From a virus, in the IMG/VR virus record IMGVR_UViG_3300037137_002161, positions 1 to 38,240 of that record: a stretch of 38,240 nt of DNA. One strand, given 5' to 3'. Position numbers and translations under genes: made by a program. Positions within the stretch are counted from its first letter, which is position 1; every line of letters starts with the position of its first letter. This document shows, piece by piece, positions 4,172-37,441 of this stretch. The notes under the pieces are model-generated. The model was not told where the DNA came from, made no database searches, and worked only from the letters and a program-made list of their open reading frames with translations.

Positions 4172-4333
4172 CTAGCGCCGGCAGTGCCGGTGGATGTAGA
4201 GCGTGTCGACCACGGTGGTGGTGTCGTGGACCGCGGGTCCGGTGAGGTACTGCCACTGAGCGCGGCGCGCGCAGCCGAAGGCGAGCAGTAGGAACAGCGT
4301 CGCCCACAGGGCGAGCCGGCGCGTCGCGTTCAT
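4172..4333 (-). CDS. Small lipoprotein, o-spanin (Rz1)-like
   Basis: 53 residues. Basic start (MNATRRLAL), hydrophobic stretch (WATLFLLLAFG), then Cys21 in an imperfect lipobox (AFGC), leaving a short mature peptide of about 33 residues. ATG 4333 overlaps the stop of the preceding membrane/coiled-coil gene. A short outer-membrane lipoprotein directly after an inner-membrane coiled-coil protein in a lysis cassette is the usual o-spanin setting. Unlike many Rz1 proteins it is not Pro-rich, so the call rests on context and topology. Confidence 0.55.
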   Translation of the reverse strand: MNATRRLALWATLFLLLAFGCARRAQWQYLTGPAVHDTTTVVDTLYIHRHCRR

Positions 4334-4737
4334 TCGGTCTTCCCACCTCCGCCCAGCAGTGCGTGCGCGATCGTACCCGGCAGCGACCATAACCCATGCA
4401 CCAGCCGCGCGACAGGGTTCTGATTGGTGGGCTCGGGCGGCCCGATCGGCGCCAGCTCGGCCGCACTGGCACGCTGCCCGGCGGCCGCGCGGCGCACGAG
4501 CCGCTCGAGGCGCGCGACTCGGCGCTCCTGCCAGCGCGCACGCACCTCGAGCGAGTCGACCCGCCGCGCGGTGGCCGAGTCGCGGGCCCGCGCGTCGTGG
4601 TGGACCTGCACGGTCTCCTGGTGGGCCGACATCCAGCTCGCGCAGCTGCCGATCAGGGCGAGCGCGGCCGCGGTGCCGACCTGCCTGGGCTCGAGCCAGG
4701 CTCTCCAGCCGACCGCGGCGCGGCGGTGCGGCGTCAT
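4330..4737 (-). CDS. Membrane-anchored coiled coil, i-spanin (Rz)-like
   Basis: 135 residues. One N-terminal membrane segment (VGTAAALALIGSCASW, about residues 20-35), then a long charged helix likely to form a coiled coil (ARARDSATARRVDSLEVRA and following), then a Pro-containing C-terminus (APIGPPEPTNQNP). This matches inner-membrane spanins, which bridge to the outer-membrane lipoprotein and fuse the membranes after peptidoglycan is cut. ATG 4737 overlaps the previous stop as ATGA. A spanin pair implies a Gram-negative-type (two-membrane) host. Confidence 0.55.
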   Translation of the reverse strand: MTPHRRAAVGWRAWLEPRQVGTAAALALIGSCASWMSAHQETVQVHHDARARDSATARRVDSLEVRARWQERRVARLERLVRRAAAGQRASAAELAPIGPPEPTNQNPVARLVHGLWSLPGTIAHALLGGGGKTE

Positions 4738-5102
4738 AGCTTGGGGATCTCCACCGGCGCTCGCCCGTGCAGCAGCGCAGCGGTCGAAAGTGCGATCGCG
4801 AGTAGGGCGATCAGCGCCGCCAGCAGCTGGATCCACTTGTCGCCCGACTTGGCCGAGTCCTTCACGAACCCCTTGACGGCCTCGACCGCGGCGGCCCGGC
4901 CCTCTTTCTGGTCCCTCTCCAGGCTGGTGAGCGCGTCGGTGACCCGGCCGAGCAGGACGGTCTGCGCCGTGATGTTGGTGTTGAGGCCGGTCAGCACCAT
5001 GACGTTCTGTTGCTGGATCTGGACCAGCGCACCGGTCGCCTCGGCCTGGGCCTCGGCGATCCGCATCAGGCGGTCGACCACCGGGTCAGGGACGTAGGTC
5101 AC
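4734..5102 (-). CDS. Single-span membrane protein in lysis cassette
   Basis: 122 residues. The N-terminal 80 residues are helical (MRIAEAQAEATGALVQIQQQ, then LLGRVTDALTSLERDQKEG), followed by one membrane segment near the C-terminus (IQLLAALIALLAIALSTAAL). ATG 5102 overlaps the endolysin stop. A second holin-type or antiholin protein is possible because a 3-TM holin lies downstream. Holin assignment is by position only. Confidence 0.6.
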   Translation of the reverse strand: MTYVPDPVVDRLMRIAEAQAEATGALVQIQQQNVMVLTGLNTNITAQTVLLGRVTDALTSLERDQKEGRAAAVEAVKGFVKDSAKSGDKWIQLLAALIALLAIALSTAALLHGRAPVEIPKL

Positions 5103-5614
5103 AGCGGCGCCTCCTCGAGGTAGTCGCCCAGCCGGTTCATCCAGCCGCCGGCGTTCTTGCTCTGCAGCGCGTCGTGGCTGATGAGGCTGCCGTAGAGCCG
5201 CGCGCGCGCCGCGGCGAAGTCGACGTAGACCCGCCGCGGGTCCTGGCTCTGGAGCGCCGCCAGGCTCCTCGGGCCGAACGCGCCGTCGACCACGACCCCC
5301 AGCACGTGCTGCAGCAGCTTGGTGGCGCCGTCGACCCCGTGGTTGACCGCGCCGTCGACCACGAAGGCGCGCAGCTGCGCCGGCTCGATCTGACCGAACC
5401 CGGCTCGCTCGAGGTAGACTACCGCGAGGATCTGCCGCGCCTCCGGCTCCTCGAGCGCCGCGACGTCGGCGGCGGTGACCGGCCGGTGGCGCCAGGCGGC
5501 GAGGGTGCGCAGCGTGATCCCGAAGCGGGTCGGCCCCCCGCGGTCGGCGGCGCGGTCCGAGAAAGCGCGCCCCTCGTGGTCGATGATGCGCGAGATGATC
5601 TCGTCGTCAGACAC
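5099..5614 (-). CDS. Endolysin, GH108-type muramidase with peptidoglycan-binding domain
   Basis: 171 residues, the usual length of the family. The N-terminal signature is clear: DHEGRAFSDRAADRGGPTRF at about residues 12-31, where Glu14 of the HEG motif is the expected catalytic acid and GGPTxFGIT is the family hallmark. The C-terminal half (VDGAVNHGVDGATKLLQHVL, VDGAFGPRSLAAL) resembles the peptidoglycan-binding domain normally paired with GH108. No signal peptide is visible, so release should depend on the holin. Starts at GTG 5614 overlapping the previous gene by eight bases. Confidence 0.9.
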   Translation of the reverse strand: MSDDEIISRIIDHEGRAFSDRAADRGGPTRFGITLRTLAAWRHRPVTAADVAALEEPEARQILAVVYLERAGFGQIEPAQLRAFVVDGAVNHGVDGATKLLQHVLGVVVDGAFGPRSLAALQSQDPRRVYVDFAAARARLYGSLISHDALQSKNAGGWMNRLGDYLEEAPL

Positions 5615-9915: not shown

Positions 9916-12900
9916 CTAGTCGATGTGGTAGGCCACCACCTCGATCCGCGTCGATGCGGGTCCGAGGTGCTGGTGCGTCTCGGTCACGATAAACTTTTTC
10001 CCCACCCACGAGCCATCGGAATTAGGTCCCGGGAACTGCACGTGGGCGTCGAGGTCGGACCCGAAGTTGAAGACGTGCCCGAGGTCCAGATCGAGCATCG
10101 ACCAGGACGAGAACACCACCCGCACGCGGCCGTCGTAGCGCAGGTCGAAGATGCGCCGCAGGGTGCTGAGCGCGGCCGCGACGACGCGCACGGCGCCGGC
10201 CTGCAGGTCCCGGGCGCGAATCCCGTAGCGACTCACCCCGATCCCGGCCGAGGCCGCGGCGAGCGCCTCGCGCGCCGGGTCCCGGGCGTGCGCGTTCTCC
10301 GAGCCGGTGTCGCTCATGGTAGGGGTGATCCAGACCTCGCGGACCTCCTTCGCGACCGCCGCGTCGGTGAGGTAGTGGACGTGCGGGGCGTTCACGATCT
10401 CGGTCTCCGTCGTGCGCGCGGCTCCGAGGCTGTCGGCGATCAGGTCGTTCCAGTAGAGGGTGCGCGGGAAATCCACCGGCATGCCGGGACGCCACACGAT
10501 GAACTTCCAGCGGTTGTCGAAGCGGGAGAGGTAGGAGAGCGCCGCACAGTCGTCGGCGATGGAGGAGATGGTGCTCCCCACGTTGCTGCGCGTGGTGAGG
10601 TGTGCCACCGCCTTCATGTTTTGCGCGTCCTGCACCGCGCGCGCGTCGGTGAAGCTGCCGTGGACCGACGTCCCGGCCTCGATCCCGGCGGCCGGCACCA
10701 GTCCGTAGGTCTGGAGGATATGGCGGATGATGTCCCCGGGTCGCTCGATCAGGCTGTTGGCGACCCCGGTGTAGGTGCCGCTGCCGTCGTCGGCGTAACC
10801 CTGGATCGTGGCGAAAACCTCGGTGTCCAGCTCATAGGTCGGCGGTGTGACTTCTCCAGGAGCTGATGACCAGGAGGGGAATCGACTGCGTGGATGCTGG
10901 AGGTCGCGCGCCAGGGTCATCAGATTGGGAGACGAGAAGCCTTGAATCACCAGGCTCCGTTCCGGCCGGTATCGCACCACCAGCGCAGCGAAGTAGATCT
11001 TCGCATTGCCGGTCGCACCACCGGCAAAGTCGATCCGCAGATCGATCAGGTCATGCGTGGCATCGGGGAAGCCGCCGAATTGCCAGTCGCTGTTCCACCA
11101 GGCGGCGTCCCACGGGACGCGGATCGTTATCGGGTTGCTGCTGGGCGGCAGGAGCTGCTTCACCGCCGGGCTGGCACCGGAGGCCGGATTGTAGGGATAG
11201 GCACGCAGGTTCCCGCTCCCACTGAACGAGTAGCCGACCACCAGCTCCACGGCCGGGATGGTCTGGCCCCCGGCCTCAACGATCGCACCGAGCCGTGATG
11301 GTGATGGAAGAATGGCCTGAAGTCCGACGTGTACGGTCGCATCGAGGTCGGCCCAGGTCGTCTCATTTTCCACGTCCAGCGCATTACGCCCGTTGGTCGC
11401 GGTGTTGACTAGGAAACCTCCGGTCACACGCAGGTCGATCGGGATCACGTGGGCCTTGGCCACGATCGACTCATCGGCGAGGCTCAAGTACGAGCCAGCC
11501 GCCGCCGAGACCGCGGTCACCCCGGGCGCGGCAGCCTTGTAGGTCACACAGATGCAGTTCCATGGCCGCGACGTGATGCCTGACTTCGATGCCGTCTGCG
11601 TCCCGATCGCGTTCACGATCTTGTACCCATCGCTCACCGTCGATGGCACGCTGGAAGTGCCCAGCAAGTTGCCGACCCTCTGCCCGTTCGTGAATCCGCC
11701 ATCCCAGGTGCCCGCGGCGTCACTACTATCGCCCTGCGTTCCGACCATCCCCAGCACTAACTCCGCCGCCTGCGCCGTCGCCGCGGTGGCTCCGGAGGAT
11801 GGCGTAGTCGAAGTCCCGGCGGCTTTCGCACTCACGTCGAACGGAGCAGCGATCGCACCGGTGACCTCATAGGCGGTGAACGCCACGGAGTTGTTCCCGG
11901 TCCCGGTCATGCTCACGGTGAGGTTGTTGGTCCCGGCGGTCACGTTGGCGAGCTCGTAGACGTAGGAGCGCGCGTCCGCTGACGCCGCACGTTGCGTCAG
12001 CGCGGTCGTCCCCCATTTGACCGAGACCGGCGCACCGCTGCCAGTCTGGATCAAGGCGACCAGCATGTGACCCTGACCGAGCGCGACGGACGAGATCGCG
12101 ATGTTGGCGGTTCCCCACGCTGCATCCGACGCCTGCGCCGCGCCCTTGGCGATCAGGTCGATCCCGAGCGGTCCGAGCGGGTTCGGCAGGCCATTGCCGC
12201 GCAGGAAGGTCTGCACGTCTCCAGCATCGACGCCGATCGATTTCACCGCATGGTCGGCCACCAGCGCCTTCACGTTCGCGGCCCCGATGCCGTTGTCCAC
12301 GATCCTTGCCGCGATGGTGCCCTTGCCGCCGGCGGCGTCCTGATAGTCGCGCAGGTAGGTGCGCGCCGGCCACGGCGACCTCATGTCGGGCGCATAGAGG
12401 CTGCCGTAGGCCACCGGCCGCACCATTCCGATGGCGGGTTCGGGCGCGTTGGGGTCGGTGGCGACGCTGACGTCGTTGGGCGGCAGTAAACGCCCGGTCT
12501 GGGAGCGGTCCTGGGTGGCCCATACCGTGAGGTGTGAGGGCCAGACCTCTGCATTGGTGATCACGCCCTGAAACACCTGCGCCGCGTCGTCGAACGAGGC
12601 CAGCGAGATCGGGAACAGCCACACCGTCACCACCGCGGACGAGTCCCAACGGTAGTCGACCGTGGCGCGCGCGGCCAGCAGGCCGGCGGTCTGGTAGCCG
12701 AGCTTGCGGTTCACGATCCGGAAGGCGGTGCTGGCCGGCGCTGCGCTCGGGGCCAGCAGGTCGGCGACGCTGCTGATCGGCTCCGGCTCCTCAATCAGGT
12801 TCTCCCACAGCTGGACGTTGGCCGCCGCGCCGGCCGGGGTCTGGACCTCGCGGGTGCTGGCGTAGAGCGTGGCGGCGGCGCCGCCGGTCGCGCTCTGCAG

Positions 12901-16618: not shown

Positions 16619-17608
16619 CTACGGCAGCCCGGCGTCCCCGCTGCGGACCCGGATCACCATGGCGCTGGCGTCGGTCGGGTCCTGGAAACCCTCGATCTCG
16701 CAGGTCGAGATCAGGACGCCATAGCCGGTGACCGGGACCGAGAAGCTCGTCACCTGCGCGCTGTTCATCCGCACCTCGAACTCGCGCTTGCTCGCCACGC
16801 CGATGGTGGTGGGGTGCTGGAAGACCACCTGGGGCGAGACCGCGGTGAAGGCGCGCGCCGCGTCGAACTGCCCGGCGGTCTGAAACTCCTGGGTGAACTT
16901 CATGGTCGGCTTGATGAAGTCGTTGCGGACCGGCTGGTCGATGTTGACCGCGCCCAGGTAGAAGCGCGCCTCGTCGTGCGGGTTCGAGAGCATGACCTCG
17001 AAGCTGCGGAGCCGGTTGGTGGCGTCGATGGTGATGCCGTCGTCGGTGGTGATGGCCTGGTGGAACAGCACCGGGAAGATCGCCGGGAAGTTGAGCGCCG
17101 CGGTCGGCGTGACGCCGCTGACCTTGTCCTTGGCGACCACGGTGAAGGTCGCCACCCCCATCGCGTCGACCCCGACCCCGGCGGTCCACGCCAGCTGCAG
17201 GTCGGTCAGCGTGGCGCCCACCAGGCGCTGGCACTTGCCGGTCGCGACGTCACCCTCGATCAGCTCGATGGTGTAGGTCTTGAGGGTCGCCCCCTCCTTG
17301 AAGGTGTGGTCGCGGATCACGGTCTCGCCGCCGACGGTCGGGAAGGTGTAGGTCCCGGTCACGCCGCGCAGCAGCTCGAGCATGCCCTCGAAGTTCAGCC
17401 GCACCTTGATCGTGCCCTTGAACAGCAGCCCGCCCAGGTAGAGCGCGCGCCGGCTCTGCTTGTTGTAGAGCGAGGGGTCCAGGATCACGCCGATCACCGG
17501 CGAGATGGTGGCCTCGATGAGTTCGAGCTTGGACGTCGCGGCGACCGCCGTCCCATAGGTCGTCTCCGGTGCCAGCTGGATGTAGCTCTTAAAGCCGAGT
17601 CCCGGCAT
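16619..17608 (-). CDS. Major tail tube protein
   Basis: 329 residues. The N-terminal segment (SYIQLAPETTYGTAVAATSK, then IEATISPVIGVI) and repeated beta-strand pattern (LFKGTIKVRLNFEGMLELL; DLQLAWTAGVGVDAMGVATF) match long tail-tube proteins in which residues near the start read as xxxxExTYGT. Position between terminator and chaperone genes is canonical. ATG 17608 follows the upstream gene by 15 bases. Confidence 0.85.
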   Translation of the reverse strand: MPGLGFKSYIQLAPETTYGTAVAATSKLELIEATISPVIGVILDPSLYNKQSRRALYLGGLLFKGTIKVRLNFEGMLELLRGVTGTYTFPTVGGETVIRDHTFKEGATLKTYTIELIEGDVATGKCQRLVGATLTDLQLAWTAGVGVDAMGVATFTVVAKDKVSGVTPTAALNFPAIFPVLFHQAITTDDGITIDATNRLRSFEVMLSNPHDEARFYLGAVNIDQPVRNDFIKPTMKFTQEFQTAGQFDAARAFTAVSPQVVFQHPTTIGVASKREFEVRMNSAQVTSFSVPVTGYGVLISTCEIEGFQDPTDASAMVIRVRSGDAGLP

Positions 17609-19208: not shown

Positions 19209-21197
19209 CTACGTGGCGCCGGTCGACTTGGCGAACGACTCGCCGTGGCGCGGCACCACGTCCGCCAGCTGGAAGCTGGTGATCTCGATCAACCCGCTCT
19301 TCTTCTGGCTGTAGGGATCGACCACCAGCTCCATCATCGAGAACAGCGCCAGGATCAGGTCGCCCCAGTTGCCGAAGATGATCCCCGACTCCGCGCCGCC
19401 GGTGGTCGCCGAGCCGCTCATGACGTTCGACACCTGGTTGGTGCCGCGCGCCTGGTAGCCCTGGACCGTGCCGCTCTGGTGGGTGCCGTCCCACACGAAC
19501 GGCGAGGCCACGCCCGGCGCCTTGAGCGTGGTCATCAGCTCGGTGGCGATCTGGGGGTTGGTGAGGAAGCCCAGCGCGCCCTGGTCGGCGTTCTGCTGCG
19601 CCACCAGCTTCATCAGGTTGGCCATGTTGGCGAAGGTCGGCGCCCCGCCGAACGCCTGGGCCCCGACGCCCGCGGCGGCGTAGATCCCCATCGGCTCGCC
19701 GGCCGCTCCGAGGCCGTGGATCGACGCGCGGTCGATCGCGATGCTGTGGATCAGCGCCAGCTCCTCGCGCACCATGGTCTCGACGTCGATGGTCGCCTGC
19801 GCCAGCAGCTGGCGGCTGTAGGCCATGGTGGCCTGCAGCGTCTTGGGCGCCACCTGGACCAGCCCCAGCGCGACGTCCGAAGCCGTGACGGCCGCGGCGT
19901 TCTCGCCCACCCAGTAGGCGGTGGCGGCGCCGGTCTGCTTCGGGAACGCGATCGGGCCCGACAGGCCGGTCAGCAGCCGCGCGCCCATCTGCAGCACGTA
20001 GGTGCGGTTGCGCAGCAGCTCGATCAACTCGCCGGGCTGCTCGAACACCAGCTCGGTACCCTTGGCGAGCGTCTTGGAGTCGAGCACGCGCTTCTCGACC
20101 GCCAGCTCGCCCAGCTGGTCCTCGTCGCTGAGCCGCATCGGGATCAAGAGGCCGCCGCGGCGCTCCAGACCCGAGGGCCACTGCTTCGCGAGCGCGCGGT
20201 GCACCTCGCCCTCGATCCCGTCCGGCTTGGCCTGGTCGAGTACGTTGTCGATCGCCATCTGGATCGCCCGGCGGTAGCTGTACCGCTTGCGGTCCTTCTT
20301 CGCCAGGCCATCGAGCGCCTCGGCGCCGGCCCCGCCGCGCTCGCTCAGCTTCTTCACCTTGTCGCTCAGCAGCTCGCGCATCACCTGCTCGACCGCGCTG
20401 CCGTCCTTCACGTACTTGGCGATCCGGTCGGCGGCGTTGTGGCCGTGGCACAGGTCGGTGATCTCGGCGATCCGGTTCGTCTGCTCCTCGACCGCCGCCT
20501 TGACGGCCAGCGCGGTGCGCTCCTTCTCCTGCGCCGGGTCGGCCGCGACGCCGGGCTCAATCGGACTCCGGTGAAGCATGGTTCTTTCCTCCCTGACGGC
20601 GGTGCCGTCGCGGACTTCCATCGGGCGGTCGAGCTCCTCGCCGCCTGCACTGCGACCGACGCCCACGCTGGGGTCGGCCGGCACTCCCACCAGCGACATC
20701 TCGACCGGCTCCCAGTCGTCGATGCGCCAGAGGTCGCCCTCCTGCTCGTTCTTCTCGACCAGCGTGGCCACGTGCACCAGGTAGCCGATGCTGATGTTGG
20801 TGCGGACCCGGGCCTCGACGTCGCGCTGCGCCTCCTGGCCGCGCGGGTTCGGCGAGAAGCGGGTGTCGGCGACGATCCGCTTCTGGTCGATGATCGCCGA
20901 GTCCACCACGCCAATCGGCACGCCGCGGTGCTCCTCGAGCATCGCCGCCGAGCCGGAGGCGAACCGCTCCATCCGCACCGCGCCGGCCGCGTGCGAGAGC
21001 TGCTCGCGCCAGTCGCTGAAGAAGCCGCGCCGCGTCACGATCCGCTCGCTCGAGGCCGACATGCGGAAGCGCACCGGGTCGCCCTCGGCGCGCGCCGCGA
21101 GCGGCTTGATCTCCTCGACCGGCAGCAGCTGCATCCCGCGGCCGCCCGGGTAGACCAGGCGCCGGTTGTGCGACTTCGAGGGTGCGGCAACCGTCAT
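19209..21197 (-). CDS. Fused prohead protease and major capsid protein
   Basis: 662 residues. Residues about 40-185 match a prohead protease of the HK97 (S78) kind: His90 in MLEEHRGVPIGVV and Ser136 in NISIGYLV are the expected catalytic pair, and WEPVEMSLVGVPADPS closes the domain. Residues about 207-345 are a charged helical scaffold-like region (ERTALAVKAAVEEQTNRIAE). From about 345 the sequence is an HK97-fold capsid protein (GELVFEQ-like arm, GAATAYWVGENAAA, KTLQATMAYSRQLLAQATID, IHGLGAAGEPMGIYAAAG, SGLIEITSFQLADVVPRHGE). An internal ATG at 20579 (residue 207) has a strong ribosome site, so capsid protein can probably also be made without the protease. Follows the portal and a 290-residue structural gene. 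Confidence 0.85.
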   Translation of the reverse strand: MTVAAPSKSHNRRLVYPGGRGMQLLPVEEIKPLAARAEGDPVRFRMSASSERIVTRRGFFSDWREQLSHAAGAVRMERFASGSAAMLEEHRGVPIGVVDSAIIDQKRIVADTRFSPNPRGQEAQRDVEARVRTNISIGYLVHVATLVEKNEQEGDLWRIDDWEPVEMSLVGVPADPSVGVGRSAGGEELDRPMEVRDGTAVREERTMLHRSPIEPGVAADPAQEKERTALAVKAAVEEQTNRIAEITDLCHGHNAADRIAKYVKDGSAVEQVMRELLSDKVKKLSERGGAGAEALDGLAKKDRKRYSYRRAIQMAIDNVLDQAKPDGIEGEVHRALAKQWPSGLERRGGLLIPMRLSDEDQLGELAVEKRVLDSKTLAKGTELVFEQPGELIELLRNRTYVLQMGARLLTGLSGPIAFPKQTGAATAYWVGENAAAVTASDVALGLVQVAPKTLQATMAYSRQLLAQATIDVETMVREELALIHSIAIDRASIHGLGAAGEPMGIYAAAGVGAQAFGGAPTFANMANLMKLVAQQNADQGALGFLTNPQIATELMTTLKAPGVASPFVWDGTHQSGTVQGYQARGTNQVSNVMSGSATTGGAESGIIFGNWGDLILALFSMMELVVDPYSQKKSGLIEITSFQLADVVPRHGESFAKSTGAT
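20577..20592 (-). promoter_or_regulatory. Internal ribosome site for separate capsid protein
   Basis: On the minus strand GGAGG (20592-20588), preceded by AG, lies eight bases before an in-frame ATG (20579). Translation from here gives 456 residues: scaffold-like region plus capsid domain, without protease. Such strength of Shine-Dalgarno inside a gene is unlikely to be needed unless used. Confidence 0.6.
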
Positions 21198-21207
21198 GGT
21201 GTCCCCC

Positions 21208-22080
21208 TTAGGGTGCGAGGTAGGCCTCGTCCAGGTTCGGGTCGGAGTCGAACACCGTGATCGCGTCGACGGTGACCGCCAGAGTGGCCGCGGTCGCGAC
21301 CACGATGCGGTTCCCGTAGTACTGCTGGGTGAAGACCGGAACGGAGACCGGAAACAGGCCGCGGTACTTCCAGAATCCGGTGACCATCGTGATCGGGGAG
21401 GCCGTGCCGAAGGGCGTGAAGATCCCGTCCGCGCCCTGCTCGACCAGGAAGGAGACGTCGGGCCCGATCGACAGATAGACCGCCGCGGCGGTGGCGGTGG
21501 CCGGCTGGCTGAGCGTGAGGCTGCTGGTGCTGACCCAGGCGGCGATGGTGGTGCCCGGCAGGATCCCCGGTCCCTTGACGTACTGCCCGGCCACCACCGA
21601 GGCGGCCGGGAACAGGGCCGCGCTGGTTACGTTGGTCGAGCCCGCGGTGGTGGCGCACGAGATCGGGGCCAGCGGCACGTCCTCGCCGACCTTCTCGTTC
21701 GCCGTCCAGGTGCCGCCGTTGAGGTTCCCCTTGATGGCGAGCACGACAGCTCGGGCGCCGCGGACGCGCAGCGGCGGGATCTGGATCGTGCCGACCGCGA
21801 TGCTCACGCCGCTCTGCGACAGCGCGCTGAGCCTGGAGAGGTCGAAGGCGAAGCTCAGGCTCGGCGTCCCGGTCGCGGTGGCCGGGATGCTGACCGTGAT
21901 GCTGCTGCTGCTGCCGAACGCGCTGACGATCGTGCCGGGCGCGATCCCGGCCCCGCTCACTTGCATGCCGATCGAGACCAAGCCGAACAACGCGGCACTC
22001 GTGACCGTCTGTGAGTTGATGGTCGTCACCGACGAGAGGCCCACCAGCGGGTCGTAGATCCGGGTGCGGTAGATCTTCAT
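21208..22080 (-). CDS. Structural protein with two beta modules
   Basis: 290 residues between portal and capsid genes. Residues about 22-76 and 147-204 are repeats of one module: VTSAALF, then GxxVxGxGIxPGTxI, then SSSxT(V/L)SxPATATxxxxxLS. The region between (RVRGARAVVLAIKGNLNGGT) and the end (VFTQQYYGNRIVVATAATLA) are also beta-rich. A capsid decoration or portal-associated role is suggested by position. ATG 22080 overlaps the portal stop (ATGA). Confidence 0.6.
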   Translation of the reverse strand: MKIYRTRIYDPLVGLSSVTTINSQTVTSAALFGLVSIGMQVSGAGIAPGTIVSAFGSSSSITVSIPATATGTPSLSFAFDLSRLSALSQSGVSIAVGTIQIPPLRVRGARAVVLAIKGNLNGGTWTANEKVGEDVPLAPISCATTAGSTNVTSAALFPAASVVAGQYVKGPGILPGTTIAAWVSTSSLTLSQPATATAAAVYLSIGPDVSFLVEQGADGIFTPFGTASPITMVTGFWKYRGLFPVSVPVFTQQYYGNRIVVATAATLAVTVDAITVFDSDPNLDEAYLAP

Positions 22081-23747
22081 CTCAGCCTCCCCTGCCCGTT
22101 GAGTGCCGCCCGCTCGGCGATCGCCGCGGGGATGTCCAGCGCGTTGGCGCTCGCATCGGCGACCGTCGTGCCGGTGTCGGCGGCCTCGGCCGCGGCCGCG
22201 CCCGCCCCGCCGGCCGCGCCCTTGGGCGCCACGCGCGGCGGCGTGATGTCGATCCCGAGCCGGATCGCCTCGTCCTGCTCGGCCTTGAGCTGCTCGGCGA
22301 TCTCGAAGAAGTCGCGCCCCTTCTTCGCCAGCACCTGCTGGCGCGAGATCAGCCCCGCGTTGATGTCGACCGAGTCGGCCTCGCTGTCCTTCAGGGGGTC
22401 GGGCGAGTCGAAGCTCCTCGCCGCGTATTTCACCTCGAGGAACTTCCGGAAGTCGCGCGAGTCGAGCACCAGGCGCCCCGACAGCAGCGCGCAGTCGAGC
22501 CACTCGGCGTAGATGCGCCGGTAGAACACGTCGCGGAACCGGTTCTGCAGCGTCTCCCAGGTGTCGCGCTCGATCGTCAGGCCCATGCGCGCGCTCGAGT
22601 AGTTGACGCTCTCGAGGTCGTTGCCGAGCGAGTTATAGCTGCAGTCGAGCCCGGTCGAGACGGTGCGCAGCGCGCCCTTGACGAACGCGCCGTAGGCGAC
22701 GTTCGGGTGATGCGGGTCGAAGGTCGCGAGCTCGTAGCCGGGTGGCAGGGTCTCGAAGCTGCCGGGGTTCGCCTCCATCGAGATCTCGTTGTTCACGTCG
22801 GGGGTGAACTCGCCAGATTCGCCGACCTTGAGCTGGAAAAATCCCATTTTGGAGGCGGCAAGGCGTGCGCCGACGAGTTCGCCCTCGATGTAGCCATCGA
22901 GCATCTTGAGCGGCAGCATGATGCAGGCGAACCAGGACGTGCCGCGCGTCTGGTTGCACCGTTCCGGGTCGTAGAGGTGGATCACCTGCTCGGCCGGGAC
23001 GCGGATATGGTTGCGCGGGCCTCCCATCGCGGTGTAGCTCGCCGGGTGGTCCCACATCCAGAACGCCACCGGGCGGCCATACTGGTTGATCTCGACCCCC
23101 ATGCGGATCTCGTTCTCGCCGCCCGAGGGTGAGAGCCGGTTCATGCGCTCATCGATCTGGTCCGGGTCGATGGCATCCAGCGCGAAGCGGTAGGGGTTGT
23201 CGGGGAAGCCCGGCCACAGGCGCACGAACGCCTCGCCGTCGCAGGCCCAGGCCTTGATGGTCTGGTGCTCAAACGCCACGCGCGAGAGCCGCCCGTCGAT
23301 CGTGACGCAGCTGCTCCAGTCCTCCCAGGCGTCGTCGATCTTCTGGTTCAGCATCTTGTTCAGCTTCCCGCTGTTGTCGCGCACCTGCGGGTCGACGTCG
23401 ATGCCGTTCGGGCCCACCACGTTGATCGCCAGCATGGTGAGGAAGTGGCGGGCATAGGCGTTGTTGCGGCGCAGGTCGCGGGCCCGCGCCCGGATCCGCC
23501 GGTTGGTCCAGCGCAGCTCGTCGTCCGGGGTCAACAGCGAGATCGCCCAGTCGGCGGTCAGCCGGTTGATCTCGCTCCCGCGGTAGGCGTCGCGCTTCAT
23601 CAGCAGCGCCTTCACGCGCTTGGCGTCGAGCGCGCGCTGCTCGATCCCGCGCCGGGTCGAGTCGGCGCACGAGAGCGCCGCGCTCTCGTAGGCGCTCAGA
23701 CGTCGCACCATTGGGGTCTCGACCGCCACCGACTCGAGCGCGGTCAT
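22077..23747 (-). CDS. Portal protein, lambda family
   Basis: 556 residues from ATG 23747, which overlaps the upstream stop as TGATG. Typical lambda-family portal features: RARARDLRRNNAYARHFLTM at about residues 85-105, INVVGPNGIDVDPQV, HLYDPERCNQTRGTSWFACI and the CSYNSLGNDLESVNYSSARM block. The portal is the dodecameric ring through which the terminase pumps DNA. A Gly/Ala-rich disordered tail ends the protein. Earlier in-frame codons exist upstream but overlap the previous gene and look antisense. Confidence 0.92.
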   Translation of the reverse strand: MTALESVAVETPMVRRLSAYESAALSCADSTRRGIEQRALDAKRVKALLMKRDAYRGSEINRLTADWAISLLTPDDELRWTNRRIRARARDLRRNNAYARHFLTMLAINVVGPNGIDVDPQVRDNSGKLNKMLNQKIDDAWEDWSSCVTIDGRLSRVAFEHQTIKAWACDGEAFVRLWPGFPDNPYRFALDAIDPDQIDERMNRLSPSGGENEIRMGVEINQYGRPVAFWMWDHPASYTAMGGPRNHIRVPAEQVIHLYDPERCNQTRGTSWFACIMLPLKMLDGYIEGELVGARLAASKMGFFQLKVGESGEFTPDVNNEISMEANPGSFETLPPGYELATFDPHHPNVAYGAFVKGALRTVSTGLDCSYNSLGNDLESVNYSSARMGLTIERDTWETLQNRFRDVFYRRIYAEWLDCALLSGRLVLDSRDFRKFLEVKYAARSFDSPDPLKDSEADSVDINAGLISRQQVLAKKGRDFFEIAEQLKAEQDEAIRLGIDITPPRVAPKGAAGGAGAAAAEAADTGTTVADASANALDIPAAIAERAALNGQGRLR

Positions 23748-24349
23748 CACAGCGCCGGCCCCGCCGCCGGCGGCACGTCGCGCGAGCCGGTCTCGCTCTG
23801 GACCCCGGTGAAGGTGGCGAGCACCTTCGGCCCCATCTGGCCGGGGAACTTGTTGCGCTGGATCTTGTCGATCATCCGCGACCGCTCGGCCCACAGCTCC
23901 TTGCGCGGCACCCTCGTCAGCGAGCGGTTGCCGATCTGGTAGTGCTCGACGTCGGCGGTGATGCGCCCGGTCAGCACCCCCTCGATCGCCAGCAGCATCT
24001 TCTCCTCGAACGCCTGGAAATCGCCGGCCTGGGCGCTGCCGACGTTGGGGAGGATCGTGACCGTGCCGCTGGCCGCGACGTAGTCCTTGTTATTCGCGAC
24101 GTCGTGGACGATCTCCTTCCAGGTGTGGATCCCGGCCAGCAGCGCGGCGGTGGCGGCGGAGGAGAGCGCGAAGGCGAAGGCGCCGCTGACCACGGTGGCC
24201 GCGACGTCGAGCGAGCTGCGGCCGCGGACGTACAGCTTGGCGGTCCAGGCGCCACCGACCGCCGGGTAGGAGGCGAAGGTGCGCGAGTACTCGACGGTGG
24301 TGCCGGAGGCGAACGAGTCCGGCATGGCGGTCAGGACGGGTGCCGACAT
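23747..24349 (-). CDS. Head-associated protein before the portal
   Basis: 200 residues. N-terminal two-thirds is beta-rich (GGAWTAKLYVRGRSSLDVAA, AGIHTWKEIVHDVANN). The C-terminal third (FQAFEEKMLLAIEGVLTGRI, VEHYQIGNRSLTRVPRKELW) looks like the small GpW-type head-tail joining unit that commonly precedes the portal. It could therefore be a GpW-like domain carried at the end of a larger protein. Its ATG at 24349 has only a weak ribosome site. Confidence 0.55.
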   Translation of the reverse strand: MSAPVLTAMPDSFASGTTVEYSRTFASYPAVGGAWTAKLYVRGRSSLDVAATVVSGAFAFALSSAATAALLAGIHTWKEIVHDVANNKDYVAASGTVTILPNVGSAQAGDFQAFEEKMLLAIEGVLTGRITADVEHYQIGNRSLTRVPRKELWAERSRMIDKIQRNKFPGQMGPKVLATFTGVQSETGSRDVPPAAGPAL

Positions 24350-24958: not shown

Positions 24959-25185
24959 GCCGGCCGCCATTCCTTACCATCCAGCGAGGTCTCGATGAAC
25001 CCGACGATCAGGGCCGGATCGGTTTCGGTGGAGCCGCCGCAGGCTAGGCAGTGCATCTCGAGGTCGATGAAGCGCGGATCCTCGCGTTCGATCCTCCAGG
25101 AGAACACAGTCGCGCAGACCAGGCACTTCGACAATCCGCTCAGGGCCCGAACGCGGACGTGCATCACGAGGTCGGAGCGCGCCAT
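24955..25185 (-). CDS. Small zinc-ribbon-like protein
   Basis: 76 residues. CLVC (about residue 21) and CLAC (about residue 46) lie on beta-hairpins (LSKCLVCATVFSWRI; IDLEMHCLACGGS), a zinc-ribbon arrangement. Starts in a TGATG overlap with the preceding secreted protein gene. Function unknown. Confidence 0.58.
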   Translation of the reverse strand: MARSDLVMHVRVRALSGLSKCLVCATVFSWRIEREDPRFIDLEMHCLACGGSTETDPALIVGFIETSLDGKEWRPA

Positions 25186-25676
25186 CAGCGGATCACCACG
25201 ATGCGCTGCACGCCGGAGGCGTGGCGCTCGAAGTAGACCCCGGGCGCGAGCGGAGGCTGGACCCGGCGCCCGGAGAGGTCGTAGAGCCGCGACGGTCCGG
25301 ACTCGAGCGGCGGCGGTCCACGCGGGGCCTCAAGCGCCCCCCCATGGAGCAGCACCACGTTCGAGCCGCAGGACCGGTTGCCGGCCCGGTCGCTCGTGAC
25401 CACCTGGACCTGTCCACCGGTGGTATCGGCGTCCGGAATCGCGACGCTGCAGGGTTCTCCCTCCAGGCCGCGCACCCCCAGCGCCCGCGCCACGTAGGAC
25501 TGCGGGTGCGCGTAGCTCTGGACCCACACGAAGGCCGAGTCGAGGTCCGAGAGCAGGAAGGAGCCGCGATCGCAGACGAAGGGCCAGGTCACGGAGCGCC
25601 CGACGCTGTCCACGGCGGCGTTCGAGTCCGGTAGGGTGAAGCTGACGACGATGGCCAGCGCGATCGCGGCGATCAA
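25185..25676 (-). CDS. Secreted protein with type-IX-secretion-like C-terminal tail
   Basis: 163 residues. The best start is TTG 25676; the frame is closed just upstream by the stop of the preceding gene, in the same frame. The N-terminus is a hydrophobic export-like stretch (IAAIALAIVVSFTLP) with a possible cleavage after SNA. The middle is beta-rich with Cys pairs (FVCDRG, EPCSVAIPDADTT, NRSCGSNVVLLHG) and reads like an Ig/fibronectin-like domain (VQVVTSDRAGN). The last ~35 residues (SRLYDLSGRRVQPPLAPGVY, then FERHASGVQRIVVIR) match the consensus of type A sorting domains of type IX secretion: YDxxGRxV, a loop, GxYFxR, xxGxxRxVVxR. This predicts secretion and surface attachment in a host with that system. 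A cargo protein carried by a phage with this tail is unusual. Confidence 0.7.
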   Translation of the reverse strand: MIAAIALAIVVSFTLPDSNAAVDSVGRSVTWPFVCDRGSFLLSDLDSAFVWVQSYAHPQSYVARALGVRGLEGEPCSVAIPDADTTGGQVQVVTSDRAGNRSCGSNVVLLHGGALEAPRGPPPLESGPSRLYDLSGRRVQPPLAPGVYFERHASGVQRIVVIR

Positions 25677-25688: not shown

Positions 25689-25979
25689 TCATGCGGCGGT
25701 CTCCGCATCTTCGACCCTCGGGTCCTTGAAGATCGGGATGAGCGGCGGGAGCAGCTCGAGCGCCTCGCGCAGGCAGTGCTCGCAGCCGCACCTCAGCTCA
25801 CCGCCCTCGAACGCCTGGCTCCGCACCAGGCACTCGATCCTCCCACGCAGGACGTTGAGCCGAACATACAGCACCTCGAGGTCGCGCGGGACGTTGACCG
25901 GCGCCAGCGGGCCGGCGGTGCCGCACGAGATCAGCGACTCGATCAGGCCGGTGCTGGCGAGCAACACGCGCAGCCCCAT
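25689..25979 (-). CDS. Small hypothetical protein with Cys motif
   Basis: 96 residues. Hydrophobic N-terminus (LRVLLASTGLIESLISCG), helix rich in Leu/Arg (VLYVRLNVLRGRIECLV) and the Cys cluster RCGCEHCLREALELLPP. ATG overlaps the upstream stop (TGATG). Function unknown. Confidence 0.5.
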   Translation of the reverse strand: MGLRVLLASTGLIESLISCGTAGPLAPVNVPRDLEVLYVRLNVLRGRIECLVRSQAFEGGELRCGCEHCLREALELLPPLIPIFKDPRVEDAETAA

Positions 25980-29361: not shown

Positions 29362-29591
29362 GGTCCGACCTCCGTGGCGTGCAGCTCGAGGTCGAACGCG
29401 CGGCCCAGCGGGAACTCGGCCACGCCCGGCAGGGTCAGGTCGAAGCGCACCGGGCGGCTCGAGAGTCCGGCGACCGACAGGGTGCTCTCGAAGCTGACCT
29501 CGACCTCAGTGGGATCGAGCTTGACCGTGCCGAGCGCCCAGCTGCGTATTGAGTGGCCGGTCACCATCACGTTGAACCGGAGCGGCTCCAT
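29358..29591 (-). CDS. Small beta-rich protein, paralogue of the 28895 gene
   Basis: 77 residues. Beta-rich (FNVMVTGHSIRSWALG, VEVSFESTLSVAG) ending in PGVAEFPLGRAFDLELHATE. Starts in the stop of the ParB-domain gene. The C-terminal PxxxxFPxGxxFxxEL pattern is shared with the 28895-29149 protein. Function unknown. Confidence 0.55.
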   Translation of the reverse strand: MEPLRFNVMVTGHSIRSWALGTVKLDPTEVEVSFESTLSVAGLSSRPVRFDLTLPGVAEFPLGRAFDLELHATEVGP

Positions 29592-31039
29592 CAGCGCCGC
29601 CCTTTCTTCCGGCGCGCCGCCTTCTTCACCGGACGTTTTGCAGACGTCTGCGCCGCCGGGTCTCGCAGCAGCCCGGCCAGGTTGATCCCCAGCGCGCGCG
29701 CGTGCGACCGGAAGTCCACGTAGGCGTGCTCCGATCGGATCTCGTGCTGGATCCGCCCGTAGGCCAGGTGGCGCACCAGGTCCTCGGCGGTCCGCCCGCG
29801 CGGGACCTCGTCAGACCGGTAGGCGCCGCGCAGCAGGACCCCCGCCAGCGGCCCCTGGGCGCCCGCGGGAGCCTTGAGGACCGCCGCCCGGGTCGCCTTG
29901 AGGATCCTGGGCGTGGCGGCCTTCCAGCGCGCCCAGGCGACCGCCAGGGCCTTGCGCCGCAGCTCCCACGGCAACTGGTCCGGCCCCGCCGGCTTCGCCA
30001 CTGCCCCGCCGGCCTTCTTCCTCGCCGTCTTCGCGGCCCGCGGGAAGTGGATCTCGCAGGTCCGGTCCACGCACACCTGGAAGGCGTCGCCGCGGCCCGG
30101 GCCGACCGCGATCACGCCGAGCTCCGACTTCTCGCAGGTCCTGGACTTGACGCGCTTGCCGGACCGCGAGTGCTCGGCCAGCTCGCCGTCCGCCCGGCGC
30201 CACGACATCGGCCCGTGGGTCCGCTCCTTGCCCCGCGCGCCCTCCGGCACGTGGTAGTCGTGGGTGATGAGCACCACCTTGCGCTTCTCGGTGCTCGCGT
30301 CCTGGAGCGCCACCGCGGTCTCCGGGAACAGCAGCGGGTCGGCCGCCGTCGGCTCGAACCTCACATTGTCGTCGATCCACGACTCGAGCTCCCGCACGCT
30401 GCGCGGTTTGACCGACCTCTTCGCCTCGTCCTCCTCGAACGGATCCTGGTGCAGGTGCTCGACCGCGAAGATCCCGCCCTCCCGGCCGTTACCGATCCGG
30501 TCGGTGGCGAGCGCGCGCGCCTGGTCGGCGGGCTTCAAGCGCGCCAGCAGGATCGCGTGCCCGGCGGTGAACTTGCCGGCCCAGAACAGCGCCTTCGCCT
30601 CCTTGGTCAGCGCCAGCAGCTTGACCCGGTCGTAGACGTACTTGACCGAGCGGCCCACCCGCGCCGCGATCTTGGCGACGTCGTAGCCGGGCTGGCGCGA
30701 GAGGTCGTGGTAGCCCTGGGCCTCCTCGAGCGGGTGGAGGTCGGCGCGCTGCAGATTCTCGACCAGCTGGAGCTCGAGCGCCTCCTGGTCGGTGAGCTTC
30801 GAGATCGTGGCCGGGATGGTCTCGAGCCCAGCGGCCTTCGCGGCGCTCCAGCGCCGGTGGCCGCACACGATGACGTAGCGGTCCTCCTTCTTGGGGTGCG
30901 GGCGCACCAGGATCGGCTGCAGGATCCCGTGGGCGCGGACGCTCGCCGCGAGCTCCTCGATCCCGCAGTCGCTGACGTCCAGGCGGCGCGGGTTGGTCGC
31001 GGACGGTTCAAGCGCCGCCAGCGGCAGGTGCTCTCTCAT
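29591..31039 (-). CDS. ParB/RepB-type domain protein
   Basis: 482 residues. N-terminal ParB domain: ATNPRRLDVSDCGIEELAAS (about residues 14-33), ILVRPHPKKEDRYVIVCGHR (about 42-61) and QLVENLQRADLHPLEEAQGY, then a helix-turn-helix (VAKIAARVGRSVKYVYDRVK). The C-terminal 250 residues include CVDRTCEIHFP and a long basic tail (RPVKKAARRKKGRR). ParB domains bind CTP and DNA and act in partition or regulation. No ParA ATPase is seen in the window, so a solitary regulator or nuclease-type function is as likely as partition. The ATG lies inside the end of the upstream gene. Confidence 0.82.
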   Translation of the reverse strand: MREHLPLAALEPSATNPRRLDVSDCGIEELAASVRAHGILQPILVRPHPKKEDRYVIVCGHRRWSAAKAAGLETIPATISKLTDQEALELQLVENLQRADLHPLEEAQGYHDLSRQPGYDVAKIAARVGRSVKYVYDRVKLLALTKEAKALFWAGKFTAGHAILLARLKPADQARALATDRIGNGREGGIFAVEHLHQDPFEEDEAKRSVKPRSVRELESWIDDNVRFEPTAADPLLFPETAVALQDASTEKRKVVLITHDYHVPEGARGKERTHGPMSWRRADGELAEHSRSGKRVKSRTCEKSELGVIAVGPGRGDAFQVCVDRTCEIHFPRAAKTARKKAGGAVAKPAGPDQLPWELRRKALAVAWARWKAATPRILKATRAAVLKAPAGAQGPLAGVLLRGAYRSDEVPRGRTAEDLVRHLAYGRIQHEIRSEHAYVDFRSHARALGINLAGLLRDPAAQTSAKRPVKKAARRKKGRR

Positions 31040-33102: not shown

Positions 33103-35025
33103 TCACCAGTTGGTGGCCCAGCCGCGCCGCTTGCGCTTGGCGGGCAGCGGCGCGGGTGCGGCGGGTGGTGGACCGCCCTCGCCGGGCGCCGGAGCGAGCA
33201 CCATCTGCGCGAACTTGTCGGCGCGGCTCTGCAGCACGCGCATCAGCGGCGGCCCCAGGATATGCAGCGCCGCCAGGCAGTAGACCTCGAGGTCGAGCGC
33301 CTCGTTCCGGCGGTGGATCTTGATCCACTGCCGCACCGTGCCCTTGCCCTTGACATATTTCCAGACCGCGCGCTCGGCGGTCAGCTGGTCGACGTACTCC
33401 TCGTCGATCCACTCGGGAAAGTGCATGTAGCCGGGGCCGGGCGTGGCGATCCGCAGCCGCGAGTAGATCACGTCCTTGGCGGTGTCGGTGCAGAGCGTCC
33501 ACAGCTTCACCCGGTAGCGGTTGCGGGTGCTGGCGCGCGAGACGATCTCGCGCCCGCGCTCGCTGCCGCCCTTGACCGGGAACACCTTGTGCTCGCGCCG
33601 CACGCTGCAGAACCGGTAGACCACCTCGGTGTGGTGCCCGCTGTCGATCGTGACGCACTCGATGCGGAGCTTCTGGCCGCTCTCGTGCAGGAACTCGCCC
33701 TTCAAGAACTGGTCGAGGTCCGGCCACGGCGACTTGGGGCCGCTCTCCTGCCCCGGGTCGCCGTGGAACTGGGCGAGCGCGATCAGCCACGACTGCTCGC
33801 CGGCGCCGTAGCCCTTGACGGCGCACTCGAGCCGATCGGCCTGGACGTCGACCGAGGCGACCAGCGCGCCGACCCCGACCGGTACCTCGCCGGCGTAGCG
33901 CCGCGCGCGCGCCAGGACGCTGCCGGCGCCGACCCCCTCGCCGAGGTCCTCCCAGGTCTCCCCCAGCACGGTGTTGACCCAGGTCTTCAGCATCACCGCG
34001 TCGCTCTTGACCTTCAGGAACTCGTCGACGCACTCGGCCCACGACCGCCAGCCGATCGGCGAGTAGAGGCTCGAGAGGTGGTAGCCGCGGGTCTTGCCGT
34101 CGCCCACCGCGGTCGGGCGCCACGCGCCGCGCGCCAGCATCTGGGTCTTGTGGTGCTCGTCGATCAGCCCGTCGCAGCTGGCGCAGCGCAGCCGGGCGGT
34201 CTCGGGCCGGTGCTCGTCGAAGTGGATGTGGTGGTGCCGCCCCTCCTCGCCGCTCCAGCCGCCGATCCGCCACTGGATCCAGTCCATCATTCCGCACAGC
34301 GGGCAGGGGACAAAGTAGCGCCGCTGGTCGCTGGCCAGGTACTCGCGCTCGATCCGCGACAGGTTCTTGAGGGTGGGGCTCGAAACCAGGAGGATCTTAC
34401 GGCGTGGGAAGTTGCTGGTGCGCTTCTCGGCCAGCGCCACCGGGTCGCCCTGGCCGTCGACGTCGCCGGGGTAATCGTCGACCTCGTCGCACAACAGGAA
34501 GCGCGCCGGCATCGACCGCAGGCCGGCGCCGGAGTTGGCGCCGGTCAGGATGAACAGGCCGCCCTGGAACTCCTTGACGAAGGTGGTGTTGCCGGCGTCC
34601 CGCGAGCGCGCCGCGCGCACTCGCTCGCGCAGCACCGGCGTCAACTCGATCATCGGTGCGATCCGCTGCTTCGAGACCTTGCTCGCCGCGTCGATGGTCG
34701 GATAGACGATCAGCACCGGCGCCGGCGCGCGGTGGATGATGTAGCCGAGAAAGTTATTGATGATCTCGGTGCCCCCCAGCTGCGCGCCCTTCATGAACAC
34801 GATGCGCCGCACCGGGTCGTGGGGCGAGAGGCTGTCCATGATCTCGCGCGCGTAGGGGATGCGGTCGGTCCGCCACGGGCCCACCGCGGCGCTGGTCTTG
34901 GAGTCCAGCACCCGGAACTCGTCGGCCCACTCGCTGATGGTCAGCAGCGGCTCGAGCTCGAGCCCGTCCGAGGCCGCGGCGCCGACCAGGTCCTCAGCGA
35001 CCGCCAGGTTTGCCGGGCTTGCCAT
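33103..35025 (-). CDS. Terminase large subunit, GpA family
   Basis: 640 residues. ATPase motifs: Walker-A-like VFMKGAQLGGTE (about 76-87), Walker B FLLCDEVDDY (Asp180, Glu181) and the coupling motif SSPT (about 215-218). Two CxxC pairs (CPLCG and CASCDG) may bind zinc as in GpA proteins. The C-terminal nuclease domain follows (SVDVQADRLECAVKGYGAGE, then VTIDSGHHTEVVYRFC). The protein powers DNA packaging and cuts concatemers with the small subunit. ATG 35025 lies 32 bases inside the small-subunit gene. The family usually packages from cos sites, which would give fixed ends, but none was recognised here. Confidence 0.92.
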   Translation of the reverse strand: MASPANLAVAEDLVGAAASDGLELEPLLTISEWADEFRVLDSKTSAAVGPWRTDRIPYAREIMDSLSPHDPVRRIVFMKGAQLGGTEIINNFLGYIIHRAPAPVLIVYPTIDAASKVSKQRIAPMIELTPVLRERVRAARSRDAGNTTFVKEFQGGLFILTGANSGAGLRSMPARFLLCDEVDDYPGDVDGQGDPVALAEKRTSNFPRRKILLVSSPTLKNLSRIEREYLASDQRRYFVPCPLCGMMDWIQWRIGGWSGEEGRHHHIHFDEHRPETARLRCASCDGLIDEHHKTQMLARGAWRPTAVGDGKTRGYHLSSLYSPIGWRSWAECVDEFLKVKSDAVMLKTWVNTVLGETWEDLGEGVGAGSVLARARRYAGEVPVGVGALVASVDVQADRLECAVKGYGAGEQSWLIALAQFHGDPGQESGPKSPWPDLDQFLKGEFLHESGQKLRIECVTIDSGHHTEVVYRFCSVRREHKVFPVKGGSERGREIVSRASTRNRYRVKLWTLCTDTAKDVIYSRLRIATPGPGYMHFPEWIDEEYVDQLTAERAVWKYVKGKGTVRQWIKIHRRNEALDLEVYCLAALHILGPPLMRVLQSRADKFAQMVLAPAPGEGGPPPAAPAPLPAKRKRRGWATNW

Positions 35026-35527: not shown

Positions 35528-35751
35528 CAGCTGCCCCGAGGCGCTTCAGCGGCCGTTCGCGGCCTCATGTAAACCGCCACGTATACCGCGTCGCCGTCGG
35601 GATCCTGCGTCTCGACCGAGCTGACCGTCGCGTGCCCCACTACCCGGAGCACGCGCAAGACCCACTTCACGACCCACGTCCGCCAGGGCGAGAGGTCCTC
35701 CTCGAAGCGGATCCGCATCACCACGGCGTATCCGACCCGCCCCACCGTCAT
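35527..35751 (-). CDS. Small hypothetical protein before terminase
   Basis: 74 residues from ATG 35751 (ATGA overlap with the methyltransferase stop). Contains RFEEDLSPWRTWVVKWVLRV and a beta-hairpin (ATVSSVETQDPDGDAVYVAV). Function unknown. Confidence 0.5.
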   Translation of the reverse strand: MTVGRVGYAVVMRIRFEEDLSPWRTWVVKWVLRVLRVVGHATVSSVETQDPDGDAVYVAVYMRPRTAAEAPRGS

Positions 35752-37208
35752 GCCGCCGCACCCTTGGCCCGCGGCGACTTCCGCGCTCGCGCCCGGCGCA
35801 CCGCTTCGAAGTCGCGGCCGCCTGGGCCGGCCAGGCGTGCGGCCTTGCCGGTGAGGTTCTGCCACCGTCGGATGATGACGTCGACGTACCGCTCCTCGAG
35901 CTCCATCAGGTAGGCGTGGAGCCCGAGCGCGCTGCAGGCGACCAGCGTCGATCCGGAACCGGCGAACGGATCGAGAACGCGGGCGCCGGCGCGCGCGGAG
36001 TTGGCGAGCTGGCGCTGGATCAGCGCCACCGGCTTCATGGTCGGGTGCTCGGCGCTGACCCGGGGCTTCTCCTCGAGGAAGACGGACCCATGGGCGGCCT
36101 CCACCGTGACACCCTTGCCGCGGACGATCAGGGTGGTCTCGCCGACCGAGATCTGCCACTCGTCCTCGCCCACCTGCTCGAAGGGCGGCGCGTCGAACTC
36201 TGCGATCGTGGTCCGACCACGGCCGCCGTACCAGCGGTGCGCGCCCCCGGGCTTCCACCCGTAGAGAATCGGCTCGTGCTGCCAGTGGTAGTCGCCCTGC
36301 GAGAGCACCAGGGCGCTCTTGCGCCAGATCAGGCACGAGCTCAGCTTGAAGCCCGCGCGCTCGAACAGCTGGCGGAATATCAATCCCCCCTTCTCGGGGT
36401 GGGCGAGATAGACCGGCGCTCCGGGCCGCAGCGCGGCGGCGAGCAGCCGCAGCGCGGCGGCGAGCAGCCGCAGCGCGGCGGCGAGCAGCTTCGAGAACTC
36501 CTCGGCGGACAGCGCATCGTTCCTCATCTTCCCGGCCGAGTTCTCGACGTCAATGTTGTAGGGCGGGTCGGTCCAGGCGGCGTCGGCGAGCTGGCCGCCC
36601 ATCAGGCGGCTGAAGTCCCGCGGATCAGTGGCGTCGCCGCACAGCAGGCGGTGCGAGCCCAGCACCCAGAGGTCACCGCGGCGCGAGGTCGGGCGCGTCG
36701 GCACCCGCGGTAGCGGCGGTTCGCTCGAGCCCTCCGCTTCGACCGGCGAGAGGATCTCCGCCAGCGCCTCGGCGTCGAAGCCGGTGAGCCCGAGGTCGAA
36801 GCCCGCCACCTCGAGCGCGCGCATCTCCGATCTCAGCAGCTCCGGGTCCCAGTCGGCGGCCGCGGCGATCTGGTTGTCGGCGATCACCAGGGCCCGCTTC
36901 TCGGTCTCGTCCAGGTGGGTGATGCGGATCACCGGGACCTGCTTGAGCCCGAGCTGACGCGCCGCGGCGAGCCGGGCGTGTCCCGCCAGCACGCCCTGCT
37001 TCTCGTCCACCAGGACCGGGCTGGTGAAGCCGAACCGCACGATCAAGCCGGCCAGCGTCGCGACCTGGGTATCGGAGTGAGTGCGGGGATTCCGCTCGTA
37101 TGGCACGAGCTTCTCGATCGGCCACTGCTCGATCTTCTGGGCCTGCCACAGGCGGATCCCGTGGCGCACCAGGTCCTCCGCGGCCGCGGACTTCCTGCGA
37201 GCCGTCAT
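35748..37208 (-). CDS. ParB-domain / DNA methyltransferase fusion
   Basis: 486 residues from ATG 37208, which overlaps the previous stop. Residues about 30-110 are a ParB-type domain (IEKLVPYERNPRTHSDTQVA, VLVDEKQGVLAGHARLAAAR). Residues about 180-486 are a beta-class amino-methyltransferase, motif IV DPPYNID (214-220) before motif I DPFAGSGST (413-421), plus HPTMKPV (388-394). The DPPY motif methylates adenine N6 or cytosine N4. A triplicated LLAAALR lies after motif IV. No cognate restriction enzyme is seen, so protection against host restriction or gene regulation is likely. Such ParB-methylase fusions are known from phages. Confidence 0.87.
   Translation of the reverse strand: MTARRKSAAAEDLVRHGIRLWQAQKIEQWPIEKLVPYERNPRTHSDTQVATLAGLIVRFGFTSPVLVDEKQGVLAGHARLAAARQLGLKQVPVIRITHLDETEKRALVIADNQIAAAADWDPELLRSEMRALEVAGFDLGLTGFDAEALAEILSPVEAEGSSEPPLPRVPTRPTSRRGDLWVLGSHRLLCGDATDPRDFSRLMGGQLADAAWTDPPYNIDVENSAGKMRNDALSAEEFSKLLAAALRLLAAALRLLAAALRPGAPVYLAHPEKGGLIFRQLFERAGFKLSSCLIWRKSALVLSQGDYHWQHEPILYGWKPGGAHRWYGGRGRTTIAEFDAPPFEQVGEDEWQISVGETTLIVRGKGVTVEAAHGSVFLEEKPRVSAEHPTMKPVALIQRQLANSARAGARVLDPFAGSGSTLVACSALGLHAYLMELEERYVDVIIRRWQNLTGKAARLAGPGGRDFEAVRRARARKSPRAKGAAA
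36426..36488. repeat. Three exact 21-bp tandem repeats in methyltransferase
   Basis: Copies at 36426-36446, 36447-36467 and 36468-36488 encode LLAAALR three times. 21 is a multiple of three so frame is preserved. It lies between motif IV and the next conserved strand. Confidence 0.9.
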
Positions 37209-37441
37209 GGCGCGGGCGACACGCGCTCCGGCGCCGCTTCGCCGGGCAGCGTCGAGACCACGTGGACCTCGAGCTTCGTGCCCGAGACCCAGCGCACCAC
37301 GCCGATCAGCCAGGAGGCGACCCCCCAGCGCCATTTCATGGCCTCGAGCCCGACCACGTGGACCTCGAGCTTGAGCTTCTTCGCGACCGCAGCGGCCTCG
37401 ATCTCGACTTCCTTCTCCAGCGTCCTCAGGTCAGGCGCCAT
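37205..37441 (-). CDS. Small protein with internal direct repeat
   Basis: 78 residues. KLEVHVV occurs twice, encoded by two exact 21-base copies, 96 bases apart. Between them is a hydrophobic stretch (GVASWLIGVVRWVSG) that may be membrane-associated. Overlaps both neighbours. Function unknown. Confidence 0.5.
   Translation of the reverse strand: MAPDLRTLEKEVEIEAAAVAKKLKLEVHVVGLEAMKWRWGVASWLIGVVRWVSGTKLEVHVVSTLPGEAAPERVSPAP
37256..37372. repeat. Direct repeat, 21 bp, 96 bp apart
   Basis: GACCACGTGGACCTCGAGCT plus T occurs at 37256-37276 and 37352-37372. Spacing of 96 bp is a multiple of three, so both copies code for the same peptide. Confidence 0.85.

Follow-up and report, generated by a model that had tools for sequence, protein, structure and literature searches.

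A compact type A sorting-like tail on a small exported-type protein encoded by a GC-rich phage

The DNA stretch analysed here (the window) is a 38,240-base IMG/VR virus contig of 70.5% GC, in which one small gene specifies a protein whose C-terminus is reminiscent of the type A sorting domains of type IX secretion system (T9SS) substrates. The question raised by this locus is whether a phage supplies cargo that is handled by the T9SS of its host. All recognised genes of the contig are encoded by the minus strand and constitute a lambda-type set, the main members of which are listed in Table 1. The terminase is less than 60% identical to its counterpart in each of the 802 matched phage records, with 46.8% identity to the best-ranked one, and scans of genome contigs indicated no host for the phage. 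Elsewhere in the window, a small lipoprotein-like gene at 768-1091 (minus strand; product beginning MERPSETHPGRRAASWAAFLALALLTGTGCSTRVEV; no PHROG match) is a candidate for a surface or superinfection-exclusion protein. A gene at 35748-37334 (minus strand) encodes a DNA methylase (N6_N4_Mtase) that is preceded by a ParB_N domain, and a second ParB-like gene is located at 29591-31039.

Table 1. Features of the phage contig that are relevant to the sorting-like tail. Positions refer to the 38,240-base window.
Feature	Position	Strand	Remark
Gene for the 163-aa exported-type protein with sorting-like tail	25185..25676	-	TTG start
Hydrophobic N-terminus, probable Sec signal peptide, residues 1-20	25617..25676	-	Hydropathy
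Beta-rich middle, Ig/FN3-like by inspection, residues 28-110	25347..25595	-	Strands in low-confidence AlphaFold2 model
LYDLSGRRV, type A motif B (beta3-beta4 loop)	25260..25286	-	Anchored score
LAPGVYF, motif D	25230..25250	-	Anchored score
QRIVVIR, very C-terminus, motif E	25188..25208	-	Anchored score
Gene directly upstream, conserved beside the same slot in two related phages	25689..25979	-	
Head-tail joining gene, downstream bound of the variable slot	23747..24349	-	PHROG 5774
Terminase gpA	33103-35025	-	
Lambda-type portal	22077-23894	-	
Capsid	19209-21197	-	
Tail tube	16619-17608	-	
GH108 endolysin	5099-5614	-	

The open reading frame and its tail are present where the initial annotation had placed them, and the frame has a coding signature. 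The GC contents at the three codon positions are 0.72/0.54/0.90, and in a codon-usage scan this frame outscored the other five along most of the gene, though less clearly in the last 150 bases. We therefore regard it as a real coding gene. Its TTG start follows the stop codon of the upstream gene in the same frame, and the ATG that overlaps this stop codon (ATGA) opens a different frame with a strongly negative coding score. Either the TTG is used, or the sequence contains a small assembly error. An antisense tRNA-Leu called by ARAGORN inside the gene (25297-25378, plus strand) was without Rfam support at E 1 and was taken as false. A search of 50,697 phage records gave no homologue of the whole 163-residue protein at E 1, and the protein had no close relatives in the viral contigs or genome contigs searched. 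Its middle part matched nothing below E 2 in 72,556 plasmids.

The description of the product as an exported protein could be upheld in part. The N-terminal stretch is hydrophobic (12-residue mean of 2.91) and plausibly represents a Sec signal peptide, but the absence of any lysine or arginine ahead of this stretch, together with the TTG start, leaves the signal peptide short of proven. The Ig/FN3 models of Pfam did not reach their cut-offs on the protein, the only match being to Big_6 (E 0.13; 12.9 bits versus a cut-off of 27.6). A single-sequence AlphaFold2 model of the protein was of low confidence, with a mean pLDDT of 43.5. The tail was the only part of this model to fold with some confidence (block pLDDT up to 73), with strands at residues 129-132, 146-152 and 157-162.

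The tail comprises the last 33 residues, LYDLSGRRV...LAPGVYF...QRIVVIR, in which motifs B, D and E appear in order and end at the C-terminus of the protein. Motif A (PNP) is absent from the protein sequence, and the AlphaFold2 tail shows only a few strands rather than a seven-strand Ig-like sandwich. Since motif A and the middle strands are missing, the tail alone cannot form the sandwich of known signals. Neither TIGR04183, which has a curated cut-off of 23 bits, nor any other sorting model of Pfam and NCBIfam matched the protein even at E 10, so the profile check that had been set beforehand was negative. The best PDB sequence match to the tail was the end of an endo-arabinanase (4kca, ERIYDLSGRLVTTPLQKGIYIRN), with 15.7 bits and an E-value of 0.16. 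TIGR04183 does find the long-form L137 tail (39.1 bits), and it also misses the short tails from Prevotella and Segatella as well as that of viral contig L167 described below. Because the Prevotella and Segatella tails are missed too, the negative TIGR04183 result is weak counter-evidence that mainly shows the tail to be short. The same model matched none of 28 viral records at E 1, neither of 2 viral records at E 10, and neither of two Gemmatirosa plasmids at E 0.001.

The tail was then compared with sorting domains on plasmids of Hymenobacter, Haliscomenobacter, Salinibacter and Rhodothermus, where TIGR04183 matched 30 places in all 9 plasmids, 27 of them above the cut-off. These 30 loci yielded 27 ends, 26 of which were distinct, and two ends were dropped (one frame running past the domain, one truncated) to leave 24 plasmid-borne reference domains. 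From these, a position-specific score was built with blocks for motif B and for motifs D-E, anchored at the C-terminus; this anchored score was devised after the target had been seen and was applied equally to all background tails. The phage tail scored 29.5 bits. Among 8,299 distinct viral ORF tails the runner-up had 6.7 bits, and the highest-scoring of 3,000 shuffles had 8.0 bits, so that no shuffle reached the score of the phage tail. In leave-one-out scoring the reference domains ranged from 21.1 to 83.8 bits, a range that includes the phage tail. The Prevotella and Segatella short tails gave negative anchored scores (-8.6 and -24.1, respectively), which shows that the score is tuned to the collected long forms. 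With a full-length HMM of the 24 domains, the phage tail outranked all others among 8,818 viral ORF tails, yet its score was only 7.8 bits, a value reached by 8 of 20,000 shuffles. This low score reflects the cost of the missing middle.

Similar tails recur in two other phages. A whole-record search of 9 phages with the protein gave one match, in the related phage G002 (the record of L027), which covers residues 130-156 with 52% identity over 27 residues (E 1.8e-4); 14 of 23 residues are identical between the two tails. The G002 tail (GLFDLLGRRVRPPLPSGRYFGRDTVALR) closes a frame that follows a beta-type segment, and the codon-position GC content shows that coding switches frame between about 1850 and 1760 of L171, which means that the counterpart in G002 is a broken gene or a mis-assembled one. 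The first of its frames opens with a GTG that overlaps (GTGA) the stop codon of a membrane protein gene adjoining an Amidase_2 endolysin gene, and the start is followed by NDLLHLVLLAQITVSGTVPDSLAN, which is faintly like FTLPDSNAA of the 163-residue protein. Within L172 of G002, positions 2048-4391 hold the tail-bearing gene and a 177-aa gene beside the Amidase_2 endolysin and membrane-protein-like genes. The other tail, IYDLLGRRVDQMEHSGIYFVVGRDGSRTKVVHLR, was found in the unrelated 159,536-base contig G029 (L167; 57% GC), where it terminates a protein of 259 residues that has a clear signal peptide and is encoded between DUF932 and DNA-ligase genes. BLASTP comparison of the 163-residue protein with the G002 and G029 proteins revealed likeness in the tails only. 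In GC-rich pattern scans of the viral contigs, YDxxGRRV gave one match, which is antisense (L024), a long-gap pattern gave none, and a short-gap pattern selected five contigs, among which only the L167 tail was convincing (12.0 bits). L163, L164 and L166 were dismissed as unrelated. In L165, an ORF at the contig edge (2-259) that ends in WYDVRGRRLRGEPAGSGVFFWRSVAGGEVVGRGRAAFVEGRRVR beside phage tail genes may be a further tail, though a doubtful one at 2.1 bits. The proposed likeness to type A domains thus stands for a compact B-D-E form that far exceeds chance expectation and recurs in phages, but not at the level of a curated model.

For a search in the reverse direction, we built a profile (A4) from the three phage tails, namely those of the 163-residue protein, G002 and G029. 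At E 1, this profile matched 14 places in 5 of 13 plasmids, and 12 of these 14 are sorting-type C-termini (8 inside TIGR04183 intervals and 4 Prevotella C-termini). A Gemmatirosa match (W02) with an unconvincing ORF and a Prevotella match (L184) that is not at a sorting-type end were rejected. The Prevotella short tail was reached with 22.6 bits, the Segatella record was not matched, and nothing new was found in 47 viral records, the 2 matches there being the profile's own rows. As a control, A4 was run on genomes from the phylum of L023 (Fretibacterium), which we take to be Synergistota; 8 of 100 genomes matched at E 0.05 or less, the best at 19.9 bits. This phylum is not among the T9SS-bearing phyla listed in the accessible text of PMC11285876. 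By bits, the best Prevotella match is the only plasmid match above the control maximum, and the argument from A4 therefore rests on the location of the matches.

The gene is situated in a region that varies between related phages. Homologues of the upstream gene occur in L003 (38% identity over 60 residues; E 5e-9 in a single comparison) and in L027, and from the HNH gene to the head genes the relatives differ in gene content. In L003 the slot (12318-12800) holds a gene whose product has a clear signal peptide, looks FN3-like, lacks a sorting tail and has no Pfam match at E 1. A lipoprotein gene and a 446-aa ORF occupy the slot in L040, and other ORFs are present in L027 and L028. An exported-type beta protein is found in the slot of 2 of the 5 phages compared (the present phage and L003, as opposed to L027, L028 and L040). 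Judged from its gene content, the stretch preceding the head-tail joining gene has the appearance of a cargo slot.

We consider it best to read the protein as Sec-exported cargo that carries a compact sorting signal and uses the type IX system of the host, and we give this reading a probability of about one half. The small protein would be produced in the infected cell, pass the inner membrane by the Sec pathway via its N-terminal hydrophobic segment, and then fold in the periplasm. A T9SS in the host would recognise motifs B, D and E of the C-terminal signal, whereupon the small beta-domain may end up on or outside the cell surface. There, it would most likely alter the surface for the benefit of the phage, for example by excluding other phages. 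The roles put forward in the initial annotation, which were a change of the cell surface, a block of superinfection and dispersal from the host, are guesses. Although the T9SS reading is the best one available, we do not assign the tail to TIGR04183, because no curated model matches it.

A competing explanation, which we rate as clearly less probable but still worth serious attention, holds that the gene is the C-terminal fragment of a host surface protein carried along as passenger DNA and without a role in infection. The variable nature of the slot, the lack of homologues for both the whole protein and its middle part in the records searched, and the frame change midway through the G002 counterpart are all in line with this idea. 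However, the codon-position signature of the gene is intact, the gene is tightly packed between its neighbours, and tail-bearing genes occur in three phages. The position of the G002 counterpart within a lysis cassette, at the stop codon of the membrane protein that follows the endolysin, would fit a periplasmic or lysis accessory protein whose tail beta-hairpin docks at the outer membrane or a translocon and aids lysis without any secretion. We regard this as unlikely, as the lysis genes of the present phage (the GH108 endolysin gene and a membrane protein gene) are 20 kb away.

Slightly less likely still is that a beta-rich C-terminus, which is no sorting signal, resembles one by chance. The absence of a curated match and the modest full-length HMM score speak for such a coincidence, whereas the anchored score, the presence of such tails in G002 and G029, and the outcome of the reverse search argue against it. 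Returning to the type IX reading, it can be extended to a speculation that we hold to be improbable: phages of T9SS-bearing, GC-rich bacteria might share a compact B-D-E tag that has moved between small beta-domain proteins, escapes the current models and, in at least one phage, lies within the lysis cassette. The type IX machine would then carry phage proteins to the outer membrane or across it, which might constitute an outer-membrane lysis step.

In the literature searched, we recognised no description of a compact sorting tail in phages. In the literature found, as far as its accessible text extends, phage type IX cargo is described from annotation only. A tail with just the secretion-relevant motifs would be a natural test of a minimal signal, and a model of the compact tail could reveal further phage and host proteins that are missed by the present profiles.

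Compared with the type A sorting domain (TIGR04183 Por_Secre_tail / PF18962), the phage tail shares the C-terminal position and the order of motifs B (YDLSGRRV), D (GVYF) and E (RIVVIR), but it has about 33 residues instead of about 72 and lacks the PNP motif A and the middle strands. Moreover, the conserved lysines of motif E in type A signals are replaced by arginine, which counts against the type IX reading. The available text of PMC10202324 describes type A signals as carrying motifs A-E, models motifs B, D and E as contacting PorV, and reports that the last 22 residues of HBP35 (motifs D and E) suffice for the secretion of GFP. Secretion of RgpB was hindered when its motif B FDMNGRR was replaced, or when the glycine therein was changed to arginine, as stated in the accessible part of PMC11285876. 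The phage tail thus keeps those motifs, B, D and E, that are reported to matter for secretion. The closest bacterial parallel is the tail of the leucine-rich-repeat protein WP_004367499.1 of Prevotella nigrescens (YDLNGRRVAKPTQKGIYIHGGKKVVIR), a candidate T9SS tail that is likewise C-terminal, has the same layout and length and is also missed by TIGR04183; its anchored score is the negative Prevotella value given above. Phage-encoded T9SS cargo as such has already been published (PMC7468147 and PMC6949934, in their accessible text). The cryophage cargo of PMC7468147 is likewise encoded by variable genes, but there an endoglucanase, a GH39 protein and a PA14 protein are annotated with type A sorting domains, whereas here a small beta-domain carries a compact sorting-like tail. 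The BACON proteins of crAss-like phages (PMC6949934) are, like the present protein, encoded by phage genes near head genes; they are gut phage proteins with BACON tandem repeats and an annotated sorting domain. Against this background, the compact tail of the present group of phages is a variation on a known theme.
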